Source of the DNA: Geodermatophilus saharensis
Lineage (GTDB): Bacteria; Actinomycetota; Actinomycetes; Mycobacteriales; Geodermatophilaceae
NCBI RefSeq assembly: GCF_900188205.1
Contig: NZ_FZOH01000002.1
Span: 310,001 to 374,000, forward strand
Reading direction: 5' to 3'
Length of the DNA: 64,000 nt
The translations under genes were made by a program, and so were the position numbers. The notes beneath the pieces were generated by a model, which had not been told where the DNA came from, searched no databases, and was given only the letters and a program-made list of their open reading frames with translations. Below, piece after piece: positions 6,227 to 60,344 of the stretch. The first letter of the stretch is position 1. Each line of letters begins with the position of its first letter.

Positions 6227-6394
6227 ACGGTCCGGCCGGGTCCGTGGCGCGCGGTGCCGGCGGGCTCCCCGGCGTGTCCCGGAACGGCACGAACTCGCAG
6301 GTGGCCGCATGTGTGACCGCCCCGCGAACGAGGTAGGTGGGACACGACCGACCGCCGCCCGGCGGCCGGCGCCGATCAGCACCGGAGGAGCTCG

Positions 6395-6688
6395 ATGGCG
6401 CTCGACGACGACGACATGACCAGCGTGGAGGGTCCGGCCGACAGCGGTGCCGGCGAGGGCACGCCCGGCCAGCACGACGGCGGTGCCGACGGCGGTGCCG
6501 ATGGCGGCGCGGGCCACGACGGCGGCGCGGACGGCACGGCCGACGGCGGTGCCGGCCACGACGGGGGCGCGGACGGCGGTGCCGACGGCGGCGCCGGGCA
6601 CGGCCCGGCCGACGGCGGTGCGGCCGGTGGCGGCTCCGACGGCGGTGCCGACGGTGGTGCCGACGGCGGCGCGGACGGTTCGGCCTGA
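6395..6688 (+). CDS. DGGA-repeat acidic peptide, possible precursor of a modified product
   Basis: 97 residues with no hydrophobic or aromatic core and no Cys. Residues 1-27 form a distinct acidic leader (MALDDDDMTSVEGPADSG...). Then come three 14-residue repeats, DGGADGGADGGAGH with one GG-to-GT change in the second, at 28-41, 42-55 and 56-69. A spacer (70-81) and DGGADGGADGGADGSA (82-97) complete it. GGAGGAG seven bases before the ATG is one of the best ribosome binding sites in the window, so this is a real gene. Its TGA overlaps a CTG codon that probably starts the next gene, a JmjC-type oxygenase. I do not recognise the family. The repeat could be an oxygenase substrate, a metal-binding peptide (it faintly resembles RTX nonapeptides) or a structural protein. 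Confidence 0.8.
   Translation: MALDDDDMTSVEGPADSGAGEGTPGQHDGGADGGADGGAGHDGGADGTADGGAGHDGGADGGADGGAGHGPADGGAAGGGSDGGADGGADGGADGSA
6476..6685 (+). repeat. Tandem DGGA-coding repeat
   Basis: Three 42-base units (6476-6601) plus a variant tail, each unit built from 12-base DGGA-coding blocks and closed by GGAGH codons. Synonymous changes between units show the peptide sequence is kept while the DNA has drifted. Confidence 0.85.
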
Positions 6689-8097
6689 GCCAGGACCCGG
6701 CCGTCGCGGGGCCGGGCGGGGCTGACCCCCGCCCGGCCCTGCGCCGGTGCACCCACCTCGACCCCGCGGTCTTCGCCGAGCGGCACTGGTCGCGCCGCCC
6801 GCTGCTCACCCGCGCCGAGGACACCGGGGAGTCCTTCGCCGACCTGCTGACGCTGGCCGACGTCGACGAGCTGCTCTCCCGCCGCGGGCTGCGCACCCCG
6901 TTCCTGCGCATCGCCAAGGACGGCGCCGTCGTCGATGCGGCGCGGTTCACCACCTCCGGCGGCGCCGGCGCCGAGATCGCCGACCAGGTCTCCTCCGACG
7001 CCGTGCTGAGGCTGTTCGCCGACGGCAGCACCGTCGTCCTGCAGGGCCTGCACCGGCTCTGGCCGCCGCTGATCGAGTTCGCCGACCAGCTCGCCGCCGA
7101 CCTCGGGCACCCCACGCAGGTCAACGCGTACGTCACCCCGCCGTCCTCGCGCGGCTTCAGCCCGCACTACGACGTGCACGACGTCTTCGTGCTGCAGGTG
7201 GCCGGCGAGAAGCACTGGACGATCCACGAGCCGGTGCTCCCCGAGCCGCTGCGCAGCCAGCCGTGGAACGACCGCGCCGCCGAGGTCGCCGCGGCCGCGG
7301 AGCGCGAGCCGGTCATCGACGCGGTGCTGCGCCCCGGGGACGCCCTCTACCTGCCGCGCGGCTACCTGCACTCGGCGGTGGCGCTGGGGCAGACCAGCGC
7401 CCACCTGACCGTCGGCGTCCACTCGGTCACCCGCTGGTCGGCCGTCGAGGCGGCGCTGGACCTGGTGCGGGTGCTCGCCGCCGACGACGTCGAGCTGCGC
7501 CGGGCGCTGCCGCTGGGCGTGGACCTCGCCGACCCCGCGGCCCTGCGCGACGACGTCGCCGCCGTGGTCGGCGCGCTGCAGGGCTGGCTGGGCCGGGTCG
7601 ACCCCGACCGGGTCGCCGACCGGGTGCGCGGCCGCACGTGGGCGCAGGTGCGCCCGGAGCCGGTCGCGCCGCTGGCGCAGGCGACCGCCGCCGCGGCCCT
7701 GACCCCCGACACCGTGCTGCGGCTGCGCCGCCGCCTGCGGGTGTCCCTGCGTCCTTCCCCCGCCCACCCGGCCGGCGGCGACCGCGTCACCCTGATCGGC
7801 GGGCGCCGCACGCACGAGTTCCCGGCCACCACCCGCCCCGCGCTCGAGGCGCTGCTGACCGCCGGCGAGCTCGAGGTCGCCGACCTGGCCGGCCTCGACC
7901 CGGCCGACCGGCTCACCCTGGCCCGGCGGCTGGTGACCGAGTCGATCGTCGTGGTCGCCGACGCGCACGTCGACGGCTCGCCCGACGGGGTGCCGGCCAC
8001 CGCCCCCGAGCCGGGCCCGGCCGGACCGGGTGCCCCGGCCCCGGACGCGGGCGGGGACGATGGGGAGCGTGCCGACGCCCTCGGGACCGGGTCGTGA
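6685..8097 (+). CDS. JmjC-type cupin Fe(II)/2-oxoglutarate oxygenase
   Basis: 470 residues if started at CTG 6685. The cupin/JmjC core carries the iron triad H161 and D163 (SPHYDVHDVF) and H229 (PRGYLHSAV); the family resembles ribosomal-oxygenase-type protein hydroxylases. A winged-helix-like C-terminal half follows, as in ROXA/YcfD-like enzymes. There is no ATG, GTG or TTG in frame between the repeat peptide and the domain start. CTG 6685 overlaps the peptide's stop as CTGA, mimicking the ATGA/GTGA overlaps common here, so a coupled CTG start is the best guess; a later CTG in frame is possible. Context suggests it hydroxylates the repeat peptide, which is inference. Confidence 0.85.
   Translation: MSQDPAVAGPGGADPRPALRRCTHLDPAVFAERHWSRRPLLTRAEDTGESFADLLTLADVDELLSRRGLRTPFLRIAKDGAVVDAARFTTSGGAGAEIADQVSSDAVLRLFADGSTVVLQGLHRLWPPLIEFADQLAADLGHPTQVNAYVTPPSSRGFSPHYDVHDVFVLQVAGEKHWTIHEPVLPEPLRSQPWNDRAAEVAAAAEREPVIDAVLRPGDALYLPRGYLHSAVALGQTSAHLTVGVHSVTRWSAVEAALDLVRVLAADDVELRRALPLGVDLADPAALRDDVAAVVGALQGWLGRVDPDRVADRVRGRTWAQVRPEPVAPLAQATAAAALTPDTVLRLRRRLRVSLRPSPAHPAGGDRVTLIGGRRTHEFPATTRPALEALLTAGELEVADLAGLDPADRLTLARRLVTESIVVVADAHVDGSPDGVPATAPEPGPAGPGAPAPDAGGDDGERADALGTGS
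8056..8061 (+). promoter_or_regulatory. Possible -10 box for the ferredoxin-like gene
   Basis: GACGAT, seven bases before GTG 8069, inside the 3' end of the oxygenase gene. It would allow an extra leaderless transcript. Confidence 0.3.
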
Positions 8098-9067
8098 GCC
8101 CGCCGCCCTCCCCCGGGTGAGTACCGCGCCGGCGCAGCCCGACCCCTCCCCGACGTCCCGGCCGGTCCGCGTCGGCCGGCTGGACCCGACGCGCTGCTCG
8201 GTGACCGCCCTGGTCCGCGGCGACTCCCCCGTCGCCACGGCCGGGCCGGCGCAGCGCTGGCTGCTGGTCGAGCAGCCGGGGCCGTGGGGGCCCGACGCGC
8301 TCCTGCAGTCCCGCTTCGACGCCGCCGTCGCCCCGCGCCTGGCCGCCCGCGCCCGCGCCGAGGGCACCCGGGTGCTGCTGGTGCGCCGCCCCGGGGAGCG
8401 GCTGGCCGAGTCCGGGCACCGCTGGGCCTACGCCGACAGCAGGCCGGGCCGCGAGGGCCTGTGGTGGTCGACCCGCGAGACCGACGCCGACCTGCTCGAG
8501 GCGCCCTGGGACGGCTCGATGGGCGAGCGCGCCGACGGCCCCGTCTACCTGGTGTGCACCCACGGACAGCACGACGCCTGCTGCGCGCTGCGCGGCCGGC
8601 CGCTGGCCCGCGCGCTGCCCGCGCCCGACGTGTGGGAGTGCAGCCACCTCGGCGGCTGCCGGTTCGCCACCAACGTGCTGGTGCTGCCGCACGGCTTCGC
8701 CTACGCCCAGGTGCCCGGCGACGGCGCCGACCTCGTCACCGCGCACGCCCGCGGCGAGGTGGCCCTGCCCTGGCTGCGCGGACGGACCGGGCTGCCCATG
8801 CCGGCGCAGGCCGCCCAGCAGGCCGTCCGCGAGCGGCTGGGACTGCTCGGCGTCGACGACCTGCCGCTGCGCGGCACCCACCGGCTGCCGGGCACCGACG
8901 CCGAGGCCGCGGCCGGCATCGAGCGGGTCGAGGTGGTGCTCGTCGGCCCCGACGGCGACGTCGTCGTGCGGGTGGAGAGCCGGCCGACGGCGGAGGCGGC
9001 CCAGCTGACCTGCCGGGCCGTGCACCCCGCCCACCCCCGCGCGTGGACGGTGCTGTCGATCTCCTAG
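8069..9067 (+). CDS. Sucrase/ferredoxin-like (thioredoxin-like [2Fe-2S]) protein
   Basis: About 332 residues. The centre holds the cluster-binding signature of the Suc_Fer-like family: CTHGQHDACC followed by WECSHLGGCRF and PHGFAYAQV. Members (yeast Apd1, bacterial TLFs) fold like thioredoxin and bind a [2Fe-2S] cluster through Cys and His. The start is uncertain: GTG 8069 (preceded by a GACGAT -10-like box), ATG 8060 and GTG 8117 share the frame; codon use before 8117 is weak. It overlaps the end of the oxygenase gene by about 29 bases. An electron-transfer or redox-sensing role for the neighbouring iron enzyme is plausible. Its stop shares a CTAG with the convergent gene. Confidence 0.82.
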   Translation: MPTPSGPGREPAALPRVSTAPAQPDPSPTSRPVRVGRLDPTRCSVTALVRGDSPVATAGPAQRWLLVEQPGPWGPDALLQSRFDAAVAPRLAARARAEGTRVLLVRRPGERLAESGHRWAYADSRPGREGLWWSTRETDADLLEAPWDGSMGERADGPVYLVCTHGQHDACCALRGRPLARALPAPDVWECSHLGGCRFATNVLVLPHGFAYAQVPGDGADLVTAHARGEVALPWLRGRTGLPMPAQAAQQAVRERLGLLGVDDLPLRGTHRLPGTDAEAAAGIERVEVVLVGPDGDVVVRVESRPTAEAAQLTCRAVHPAHPRAWTVLSIS

Positions 9068-21288: not shown

Positions 21289-21999
21289 GTGACCTCCCCC
21301 GAGACCGGCCGCCCGCGCACGTCCTTCGACCCGGCGGCGATGCGCCCGAGGGACTTCTACCGGGTGGTGAACTCGATCGTCGTGCCGCGGCCGATCGCGT
21401 GGGTGCTGACCCGCTCGGCCGAGGGGGTGCACAACCTGGCGCCGCACTCGTTCTACACGGTCGCCTGCGTGGAGCCGCCGATCGTGCAGTTCACCTCGGT
21501 GGGCCGCAAGGACTCGCTGACCAACGTCGAGGCCACCGGCGAGTTCACCGTGAACCTGGTGCCGGAGGAGCTGTTCGAGCAGGCCAACGCCACCGGCACC
21601 GACTTCCCGCCCGACCAGAGCGAGGCCGACGCCGCCGGCATCCGGCTCGAGCGCAGCGAGAAGGTGGGCGCGATGCGGGTGGCGCAGTCCCCGGTGAGCG
21701 TGGAGTGCACGCTGCACTCCACGCTGCGGCTCGGCGACAGCACCGTCGTCTTCGGCCGCGTGGAGTGGGTGAGCGTGGTCAGCGAGGCCGTGCGCGACGG
21801 CCGGCCCCGCATCGAGGCGCTGCGGCCGCTGGCCCGGCTCGGCGGCAACGAGTGGTGCACCGTGGGCGAGGTCCGCACCATCCCGCGGATCCCCTACGCG
21901 ACCTGGGCCGGGGACCCCTCCATCGGCGAGCGCGTCCGCGGCGGCGAGGCACGGGACACGGAGGCACGGGACACGGAGGCACGGGACACGGAGGCATAG
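21289..21999 (+). CDS. Flavin reductase-like (split-barrel FMN) protein
   Basis: 236 residues. Typical of the DIM6/NTAB flavin reductase family: RPIAWVLTRSAEGVHNLAPHSFY, FTSVGRKDSLTNVEATGEFTVNL and an AQSPVSVECTL segment. It should bind FMN and reduce it or act as an FMN-dependent oxidoreductase; partner unknown. The last 15 residues or so (ARDTE repeated three times) are coded by a 15-base tandem repeat that continues past the stop codon. The stop lies in the fourth repeat unit, where CGG has become TAG. The tail is thus probably recent and not part of the fold. Confidence 0.87.
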   Translation: MTSPETGRPRTSFDPAAMRPRDFYRVVNSIVVPRPIAWVLTRSAEGVHNLAPHSFYTVACVEPPIVQFTSVGRKDSLTNVEATGEFTVNLVPEELFEQANATGTDFPPDQSEADAAGIRLERSEKVGAMRVAQSPVSVECTLHSTLRLGDSTVVFGRVEWVSVVSEAVRDGRPRIEALRPLARLGGNEWCTVGEVRTIPRIPYATWAGDPSIGERVRGGEARDTEARDTEARDTEA

Positions 22000-22031
22000 G
22001 ACACGGGGGCATAGGACACGGAGGCACGGGA
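21946..22031 (+). repeat. 15-base tandem repeat across the flavin reductase stop codon
   Basis: Five full units of GAGGCACGGGACACG (21946-22020) plus a partial sixth. Units 4 and 5 carry CATAGG instead of CACGGG; the TAG in unit 4 ends the gene. Confidence 0.9.
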
Positions 22032-58293: not shown

Positions 58294-60183
58294 GTGCTCT
58301 TCCCCGCCGACGGCGCCGGGTCCCGGTCGCCGCGACACGCACAGGCACCCGCCCACGGCGACCGCCCGCTCCCCCGCTCCGGCCCGGCCCCGCACGAGCC
58401 GCTGCCGCCCGTGCAGACCACCATCGACGAGCTCGGCACCCCGCTGGCCGGCGTCACGTTCGTCGTGGTCGACCTCGAGACCACCGGGGGGTCGCCGAAG
58501 GACTGCGCGATCACCGAGATCGGTGCGGTGAAGGTGCGTGGCGGTGAGGTGCTCGGGGAGTTCCAGACGCTGGTCGACCCCGGCTGCGAGGTGCCGCCCT
58601 ACATCAGCGTGCTGACCGGCATCACGACGGCGATGGTGGCCACCGCCCCGCGCATCGGGGCGGTGCTGCCGGCCTTCCTCGAGTTCGCCCGCGGCGCCGT
58701 CCTGGTGGCCCACAACGCGCCGTTCGACCTCGGCTTCCTCCGGGCCGCCTGCGAGCAGACCGGCACCGTCTGGCCCGCGGTCACCTCGGTCGACACCGCC
58801 GTCCTCGCCCGTCGGCTGCTCTCCCGCGACGAGGTGCCCAACTGCAAGCTGGCCACCCTCGCGCCGTACTTCTCCGCCTCCACCGCGCCGTGCCACCGCG
58901 CCCTCGACGACGCCCGCGCCACCGTCGACGTCCTGCACGGCCTGTTCGAGCGGCTCGGCCCGCTCGGGGTGACCTCGCTGGAGGAGCTCACCGGCCTGAC
59001 CCGCCAGGTCGACCCGGAGCGGCGCCGCAAGCGGCACCTGGCCGACGCGGTGCCCTCCGGGCCGGGGGTGTACGTCTTCCGCGGCCCGCGCGACGAGCCG
59101 CTGTACGTGGGCACGAGCAACGACCTGCGCACCCGGGTCCGCAGCTACTTCACCTCCGGGGAGCAGCGCAGCCGGATGACCGAGATGGTGGCGCTGGCCC
59201 AGCGGGTCGACGCCGTCCCCTGCGCGCACGACCTCGAGGCCGCCGTCCGGGAGCTGCGGCTGATCGCCGAGCACAAACCGCGCTACAACCGCCGCTCGCG
59301 CTTCCCCGAGCGCGCGCTGTGGCTGCGGCTCACCGAGGAGCCCTTCCCCCGGCTGTCGGCGGTGCGCCGGGTGGGGCCCGGGGCCGGCGTCTTCCTCGGC
59401 CCCTTCGCCGACCGGCGGGCCGCCGACATGGCGATGGCGGCCATCCACGAGTCCCTGCCGCTGCGGCAGTGCACCGCCCGCCTGTCCCCGCGGGTGCGCA
59501 CCGGCGCCTGCGCGCTGTCGGGGATGGGCCGCTGCGGCGCGCCGTGCACCGGCGCGCAGTCGGTCGAGGAGTACGCGGAGGTCGCCGAGGTGCTGCGCGG
59601 CGCGGTGGCCGGCGACCCGCGGGCGCTGGTCGAGCCGCTGCTCGCCCGCGTCGACCGGCTCGCCGCCGAGGAGCGCTACGAGGACGCCGCGGTGCTGCGC
59701 GACCGGGTGGCGGTCCTGGTGCGGGCGGTCCGCCGCCGGCAGCGGCTGCAGACGCTGGCCGCCGTCCCCGAGTTCGTCCTGGCCCGGCCCGACGGCGACG
59801 GCGGCTGGCACCTGACGGTGGTGCGCCGCGGCCGGCTGGTGTCGGCCGGCTGCGCCCCGCGGGGGACGTCGGTGCGCGACACCCTGGCCGTCCTGCGGGC
59901 CACCGCCGAGACCGTCCCCGGCGCCGACGGTGAGCTGGCCGCCTCGGTCGACGAGACCGAGCTGGTGCTGCGCTGGATGGAGAAGCCCGGCTCCCGGCTG
60001 GTCGAGGTGGAGGGCACCCTGGCCTGCGCGGCGCCGGGCACCGGCGGGTTCAGCGGCTTCCTCGCGCGGGTCGACGCCGGCCGGGCGCTGCGCGACCCCT
60101 TCGCCGACGACCGTCAGCTCGGCACCCGCGCCCGCCCCGAGCGCATCGTCGCCGCCGCATCGGCCACCGGCGGCCCGGGATGA
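58294..60183 (+). CDS. DEDDh exonuclease fused to a UvrC-like GIY-YIG nuclease
   Basis: 629 residues. Residues about 50-215 form a DnaQ-like exonuclease (VVDLETTGGSP, HNAPFDLGFL, CHRALDDARAT). From about 250 a GIY-YIG domain follows (GPGVYVFRGPRDEPLYVGTSNDLRTRVRSYF), with a UvrC-like RYNRRSRFPE region and Cys-rich CALSGMGRCGAPC. The order matches Rv2191. Two starts are possible: GTG 58294 with TACCGT six bases upstream, or GTG 58411 close to the domain. Repair of DNA is likely; the exact substrate is unknown. Confidence 0.92.
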   Translation: MLFPADGAGSRSPRHAQAPAHGDRPLPRSGPAPHEPLPPVQTTIDELGTPLAGVTFVVVDLETTGGSPKDCAITEIGAVKVRGGEVLGEFQTLVDPGCEVPPYISVLTGITTAMVATAPRIGAVLPAFLEFARGAVLVAHNAPFDLGFLRAACEQTGTVWPAVTSVDTAVLARRLLSRDEVPNCKLATLAPYFSASTAPCHRALDDARATVDVLHGLFERLGPLGVTSLEELTGLTRQVDPERRRKRHLADAVPSGPGVYVFRGPRDEPLYVGTSNDLRTRVRSYFTSGEQRSRMTEMVALAQRVDAVPCAHDLEAAVRELRLIAEHKPRYNRRSRFPERALWLRLTEEPFPRLSAVRRVGPGAGVFLGPFADRRAADMAMAAIHESLPLRQCTARLSPRVRTGACALSGMGRCGAPCTGAQSVEEYAEVAEVLRGAVAGDPRALVEPLLARVDRLAAEERYEDAAVLRDRVAVLVRAVRRRQRLQTLAAVPEFVLARPDGDGGWHLTVVRRGRLVSAGCAPRGTSVRDTLAVLRATAETVPGADGELAASVDETELVLRWMEKPGSRLVEVEGTLACAAPGTGGFSGFLARVDAGRALRDPFADDRQLGTRARPERIVAAASATGGPG

Positions 60184-60344
60184 CGTGCGGGAACGGCCCT
60201 CCTGCAGGGACCCGCCACGAGCCGGTGACGTGCTGGAACGGCCCTCCTGCAGGGGCCCGCCACGAGCCGGTGTCGTGCTGGCGCGGCCCTCCTGCAGGGG
60301 CCCGCCACGAGCGCAGCGAGTGGTGGGGGGCAGCGGGGTCCTTC
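60182..60344. repeat. Triplicated dispersed element (3 x 45 bases plus right half)
   Basis: Units at 60182-60226, 60227-60271 and 60272-60316 share GGCCCTCCTGCAGG and CCCGCCACGAG. The last continues into the complementary half ending GCAGCGGGGTCCTTC, completing a subfamily A palindrome. Placed after the nuclease gene. Confidence 0.88.

Follow-up and report, generated by a model that had tools for sequence, protein, structure and literature searches.

That a JmjC enzyme can be paired with a ribosomal peptide is already known from BipG, the JmjC ornithine hydroxylase of biphenomycin biosynthesis, which was shown to hydroxylate a ribosomal precursor; according to the available text of that report, the target is an ornithine in a short core, and the gene cluster also encodes a multinuclear non-heme iron-dependent oxidative enzyme (MNIO), a radical S-adenosylmethionine (SAM) enzyme, a transporter and a peptidase (PMC12707348). 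Moreover, a 2025 survey described folds like the recognition element (RRE) of ribosomally synthesized and post-translationally modified peptides (RiPPs) in eukaryotic PF08007 proteins, and noted that, among bacterial JmjC proteins, the nearest homologs of eukaryotic RRE-JmjC fusions seem to occur within RiPP-like genomic contexts (PMC12710340). Here, we describe a locus in a 64,000-nt stretch of the Geodermatophilus saharensis genome (contig NZ_FZOH01000002.1, positions 310,001 to 374,000; hereafter the window), in which a peptide with Asp-Gly-Gly-Ala (DGGA) repeats is followed by a predicted JmjC oxygenase, acting with Fe(II) and 2-oxoglutarate (2OG), and by a ferredoxin. The features of this locus are as follows:

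6384..6390, + strand: Shine-Dalgarno-like GGAGGAG, 4 nt ahead of the ATG, read from the sequence
6395..6688, + strand: precursor-like peptide of 97 residues, with an acidic leader MALDDDDMTSVEGPAD, then DGGA-type repeats and the end ADGSA (sequence, list of open reading frames (ORFs) and repeat finding)
6473..6672, + strand: core of the peptide, an array with a 42-nt period (Tandem Repeats Finder)
6685..8097, + strand: predicted JmjC_2 (PF08007) Fe(II)/2OG oxygenase, with a probable CTG start within the CTGA overlap (profile match, alignment)
8030..9067, + strand: Suc_Fer-like thioredoxin-fold ferredoxin (PF06999), C176-X8-C185...H206 numbered from 8030 (profile match; ORF start uncertain)

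Like the BipG system, as far as the available text of its report goes (PMC12707348), the locus co-encodes a JmjC-domain Fe(II)/2OG enzyme with a precursor-like ribosomal peptide. Unlike that system, it comprises two or three genes, its multi-core peptide of Asp-Gly-Gly-Ala units is long, and partners of the kind found around BipG do not recur. The available part of the 2025 survey (PMC12710340) describes neither a peptide family or repeat nor a chemistry or lineage.

The gene pair formed by the peptide and the oxygenase is conserved and widespread in actinobacteria. We sampled genomes of the family, the order and the class as well as named genomes, and reduced 220 matches to 206 and then to 205 non-redundant loci, 189 of which scored at least 250 bits (JmjC tblastn); 178 of those carried at least 400 nt of upstream sequence. 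Outside the family, 55 of the 78 candidate orthologs were fetched, plus 5 distant paralogs, and the 23 left out came mostly from the over-sampled family f14, one of them (G114) being fetched later. Judging from matching named loci, f14 is probably Micromonosporaceae and f29 Streptomycetaceae. A DGGA ORF lay upstream of the JmjC gene in 174 of the 178 testable loci and in none of the 16 loci scoring below 250 bits. In a control scan of 620-nt stretches, such an ORF was detected at 59 of 60 true positions versus 9 of 2400 random places in the same 60 loci, the lone miss (L144) having its peptide further upstream; likewise, a Shine-Dalgarno-led ORF with at least 15% Asp occurred at 43/60 true positions versus 16/2400 random stretches.

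The same picture emerged at the level of genomes. Within the family sample, the oxygenase was present in 53 of 57 genomes, in 52 of these 53 as a single match, and 29 of the 30 fetched loci had the DGGA peptide upstream, the exception (L030) having just 114 nt of upstream sequence. When a profile of the peptide was run against 199 order genomes (E <= 1e-6), it matched 97 of the 113 genomes with a JmjC ortholog (E <= 1e-70) and none of the 86 without one (Fisher p 2.7e-40, which is not an independent-sample probability because the genomes are related). The best peptide match in each genome adjoined the oxygenase when inspected by eye, except at contig breaks (G122, G019) and in G222, where it lay on another contig. 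As for the 16 ortholog genomes without a profile match, 11 had a DGGA peptide at the locus, 4 had an Asp-rich variant and in 1 the sequence was cut off. A peptide search of the own genome (4.9 Mb) returned a single strong match (E 1e-42), the two others being weak (E 0.40 and 0.52); the nearest named loci were those of Geodermatophilus, and phage records gave no match. The pairing of peptide and oxygenase is strongly supported by genomic context: the search across actinobacterial genomes that the sequence-only reading of this locus had proposed found the pair conserved, and homologous oxygenases did not lack the peptide.

The peptide gene of the window extends from an ATG at 6395 to a TGA stop at 6686-6688, and its product, for which Pfam and NCBIfam gave no match, begins with MALDDDDMTSVEGPADSGAG (MALDDDDMTSVEGPADSGAGEGTPGQHDGGADGGADGGAGH as a longer quote) and ends with ADGSA. 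The strong ribosome site noticed earlier is indeed present (GGAGGAG at 6384-6390, 4 nt from the ATG), and comparable sites were seen, uncounted, ahead of many homologous peptides. Three 14-residue repeats had been described as well; the array is there (42-nt period, 4.9 copies, score 218), yet only two of the three units are exact (DGGADGGADGGAGH), the middle one reading DGGADGTADGGAGH. As had also been read from the sequence, the stop codon overlaps the JmjC frame, which opens at 6685. Because 36 of the exact-overlap loci scoring at least 500 bits have CTGA and 1 has GTGA, CTG is the likely JmjC start codon, and the CTG at 6685-6687 is a candidate conserved non-standard start.

The exact 4-base overlap, shared by 38 of the 174 loci with a DGGA ORF, would fit a repeat ORF that is merely a DNA-level or translation-attenuation element tuning expression of the CTGA-coupled JmjC gene. 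We give this explanation almost no credence, as many other lineages have a gap between peptide and enzyme (median 28.5 nt from the peptide stop to the aligned JmjC start), the leader recurs and the repeats show a strong synonymous bias. Indeed, when adjacent repeat units were compared (with DGGA imposed on the first unit, an initial Asp on the second and no other constraint), most differences fell at codon position 3 (2387, vs 333 at position 1 and 239 at position 2), with 2176 synonymous vs 402 non-synonymous codon changes, and each of the four Gly codons and of the four Ala codons was in use. Since synonymous changes dominate and the full range of Gly and Ala codons occurs, the peptide is maintained as a protein, that is, selection acts on it at the protein level; together with the random control (9/2400), this synonymous bias rules out a chance GC-rich ORF.

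Statistics on the peptide rest on 170 peptides that were called automatically, the start being mis-chosen for some of them. These had a median length of 94.5 residues, ~71% of which were Gly, Ala and Asp, and contained 4 to 24 D..A units (median 14), the leader, of the DDDD(M/I)xTT type, being more constant than the repeat number. The leader/core layout with a varying number of repeats that had been suspected from a single peptide therefore holds across homologs. Two hallmarks of RiPP systems are thus found here, namely a precursor with a conserved leader and a separable core, and a dedicated modifying enzyme beside it (174/178 loci; 97/113 vs 0/86 genomes), and we infer that this neighboring enzyme modifies the peptide. 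A second DGGA-repeat peptide was seen upstream of the main one at the locus of one relative (L019; MTTIPENDPPRGGTPLDDAMAG..., ending EEDPRFA); its end lies 316 nt before the JmjC start, and it is possibly a duplicated precursor.

The oxygenase itself matched PF08007 with E 1.5e-28 (99.3 bits vs a cut-off of 22), while NCBIfam returned nothing for it or for the ferredoxin. The intact iron triad claimed before (H161, D163, H229, with CTG as residue 1) stood up well: in the HxD...H motif, H161 and H229 were invariant across the 192 aligned rows, and D163 was present in all but one. K176 is conserved too (in 191 or 192 of the rows) and aligns with the lysine of NO66 that has a 2OG role. With the profile, the triad and the 2OG lysine all present, the protein belongs to the JmjC oxygenases, and its activity is predicted accordingly. 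The PDB entries most closely related to it are those of NO66, of MINA and of the L16 arginine hydroxylase. An alignment of a 28-ortholog JmjC profile to NO66 chain 4y4r ran through the C-terminal domain (profile positions 24-412).

The protein thus shares with NO66, MINA and RoxA the JmjC_2 family, the HxD...H triad, the aligned Lys and a C-terminal domain alignable to NO66. These solved relatives, together with the wide presence in the family (53/57 genomes), would suit an enzyme that is a ribosomal oxygenase of the NO66/MINA/RoxA kind, with the peptide acting separately as an activator, inhibitor or iron chaperone. We regard this as decidedly unlikely. NO66, MINA and RoxA differ in that they are known to act on ribosomal proteins (as in the PDB molecule names) and are not known to have a co-encoded peptide, and we know of no ribosomal oxygenase that needs a co-encoded repeat peptide. 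Furthermore, the repeat cores would resemble the substrate of an iterative enzyme, and the core type changes together with the enzyme clade.

This last point came from more distant JmjC homologs. Most of those sampled outside the DGGA clade had another short Asp-rich peptide directly upstream, with the following cores:

L095 to L098 and L214: GDADQxDS or DADTTDSG core with a DED(I)/DDD(I)xTT leader
L217, L221 and L222: DGDATDTT and DADSTDA core types
L249 to L256 (8/8): DADGTDGDATD and similar cores, in other actinobacterial families
L223, L259, L261 to L263 and the named S. albidoflavus plasmid locus L272: SDGGGTGRSDGND-like core
L219, L220, L260, L265 and L266: DGTD(S/G)SSDFI core
L101 and L103: ADNDGND core
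L267 and L268: SDGxxxD core
L269, S. clavuligerus: IADNDPSDPPIAIADPDPFDP core of the DPxDP type, annotated as a hypothetical protein

Of 20 loci that were fetched as one set, 17 had such an Asp-rich peptide, 1 had none (L258) and 2 had too little upstream sequence (L257, L264). On a tree of 88 JmjC proteins, eight manually assigned core-type labels required 9 changes vs a shuffled mean of 35.7. That core type follows enzyme clade shows co-inheritance in this sequence comparison, and not interaction, because vertical descent alone also gives such clustering. It is possible, and in our view rather doubtful, that ribosomal repeat peptides throughout the phylum Actinomycetota are turned by JmjC enzymes into poly-hydroxyaspartyl chains serving as internal ligands for iron or another metal, with core types (DGGA, DADGTD, SDGND, DGTDSSSDFI) matched to enzyme clades. 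Two plasmid loci were seen alongside these. On the S. albidoflavus plasmid (L272, 2738-5802), the SDGGGTGRSDGND peptide, a cupin/JmjC protein, an aldo/keto reductase and a hypothetical protein stand in a row, which may represent an extended form of the system. The small mobilizable E. coli plasmid pEC6868-2 (L270, 577-2567) encodes an ABC transporter and, after it, a distant cupin protein that aligns with the query along part of its sequence at 23.5% identity.

All the cores seen have Asp in common, often flanked by Gly or Ala, and His is missing from several of them. The sequence-only reading had put forward both Asp and His as candidate targets. Asp occurs throughout, whereas His was present in 147 of the 170 called DGGA peptides (HDGG in 109/170) and absent from two of the three Asp-rich sister peptides counted; we therefore rejected His as the defining target, and Asp is the better candidate because His is not universal. 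The frequency of His in DGGA peptides, and the many oxidations that 2OG oxygenases catalyze, would nevertheless be compatible with a different modification of the peptide, be it a crosslink, a desaturation, another oxidation or hydroxylation of His where present. We consider this unlikely: besides the sister peptides lacking His, Cys was absent from 161/170 called peptides and 149/170 had no aromatics beyond position 20, so partners for a crosslink are limited.

We therefore hypothesize, as the more probable reading and with modest confidence, that the small peptide is a RiPP-like multi-core precursor, that its Asp residues are hydroxylated by the adjacent JmjC enzyme and that the product perhaps binds iron. 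In this scheme, the acidic leader DDDD(M/I)xTT would be held by the JmjC protein, perhaps through its NO66-type C-terminal domain, the Asp-Gly-Gly-Ala repeats would be fed into the iron/2OG active site and Asp would be hydroxylated iteratively, probably on the beta carbon. We propose iterative Asp hydroxylation because JmjC-fold enzymes are protein hydroxylases and BipG hydroxylates a RiPP precursor; FIH, a related enzyme, has Asn, Asp and His residues of ankyrin repeats as its targets. The product would be a flexible chain with about one hydroxy-aspartate per four residues, suited to binding iron or another hard metal, a suggestion made because beta-hydroxyaspartate occurs in siderophores. 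Its role would more likely be an internal, housekeeping one, such as metal buffering or an oxygen/iron-dependent signal, than that of an antibiotic, since nearly all sampled members of the family have a single copy of the oxygenase and genes for export, proteolysis or immunity do not recur next to the pair across lineages. At loci that have it, the Suc_Fer ferredoxin may donate electrons that keep the iron ferrous. Our confidence is strong that the peptide is a substrate of the JmjC enzyme, moderate that Asp is the target residue, and weak for leader binding by the C-terminal domain, for metal binding by the product and for the ferredoxin as electron supplier.

Several observations weigh against this proposal. 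Hydroxylation of the peptide is predicted from gene context, and metal binding by analogy. Four of the 178 testable loci had no DGGA ORF: two carried an Asp-rich variant (L095, L096), and two (L212, L213) are true exceptions, since they are located inside the DGGA clade and encode an acidic peptide without repeats. At the distant homologs L099, L100, L102, L218 and L258 no upstream peptide was found. A crude leader motif was recognized in 142 of 174 ORFs, some of the misses being mis-anchored, and several lineages have short leaders without DDD. The C-terminal domain of the JmjC protein had no match in Pfam, its comparison with PqqD (RRE family) gave an hhalign probability of 0.5% (local) or 0.2% (global), and its charge complementarity with the leader was a weak trend; neither the profile test nor Pfam supported its identity as a PqqD-like, leader-binding RRE. 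Finally, no peptidase, transporter or immunity gene recurred across lineages in 48 loci, in which only some of the lineage-specific neighbors were identified, and recurring leader-removal or export genes, usual though not universal in RiPP loci, were not found there; a lineage-specific peptidase or transporter may be present.

The neighbor analysis behind this last result clustered ORFs of at least 90 residues within ~6 kb flanks of the 48 loci. Twenty-five clusters spanned at least 5 loci; those recurring across lineages were the JmjC frame, present in 48 loci, and the ferredoxin, which clustering placed in 23, the others being confined to related loci. The third protein of the window matched PF06999 (Suc_Fer-like) with E 8.2e-14. 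It resembles the Aim32/Apd1 thioredoxin-like ferredoxins in belonging to the sucrase/ferredoxin-like family with C-X8-C...H, and differs from the motif CX8CXnHX3H given in the available text on these proteins (PMC8482512) in that the last His is replaced by Asp (129/155), Cys (25/155, including the window protein) or Glu (1/155), C176, C185 and H206 being invariant in the 155 rows. A ferredoxin was encoded on the same strand in 148 of the 185 loci with enough downstream sequence. However, no match was found in 14 of the 21 genomes searched for it, including all 12 of family f14, and in 4 genomes of family f37 the sole match was on another contig or ~400 kb away. The peptide-oxygenase-ferredoxin triple proposed from this locus is consequently frequent in its third member but does not hold as a fixed set: an obligatory ferredoxin was rejected, and the protein is frequent, perhaps helpful, but dispensable. 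Elsewhere in the window, a near-perfect 45-nt tandem repeat (60181-60312; 2.9 copies, 94% match) contains CGGCCCTCCTGCAGGG in each copy, and a 15-nt tandem repeat, GAGGCACGGGACACG, spans 21946-22031 (5.7 copies, 91% match).

A search for the peptide motif strings in the literature, with subscription papers mostly outside its scope, gave nothing except one accidental letter match. Within a subset of the matches on JmjC enzymes and RiPPs, the relevant works were those on biphenomycin-type clusters and the RRE survey, and no DGGA peptide-JmjC pair, name, product or function was described. The DGGA peptide class thus appears undescribed in the literature searched, in agreement with the earlier suggestion of an undescribed set, whereas the novelty does not extend to the JmjC/precursor pairing as such, which BipG preceded. 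If the peptide is the substrate, the two genes would constitute a very widespread actinobacterial peptide-modification pair (53/57 genomes of the family; ortholog in 113/199 of the order) and would provide a physiological substrate for bacterial NO66-like JmjC enzymes. If the poly-hydroxyaspartyl reading is true, these bacteria would possess a genetically encoded, housekeeping metal-binding polymer.

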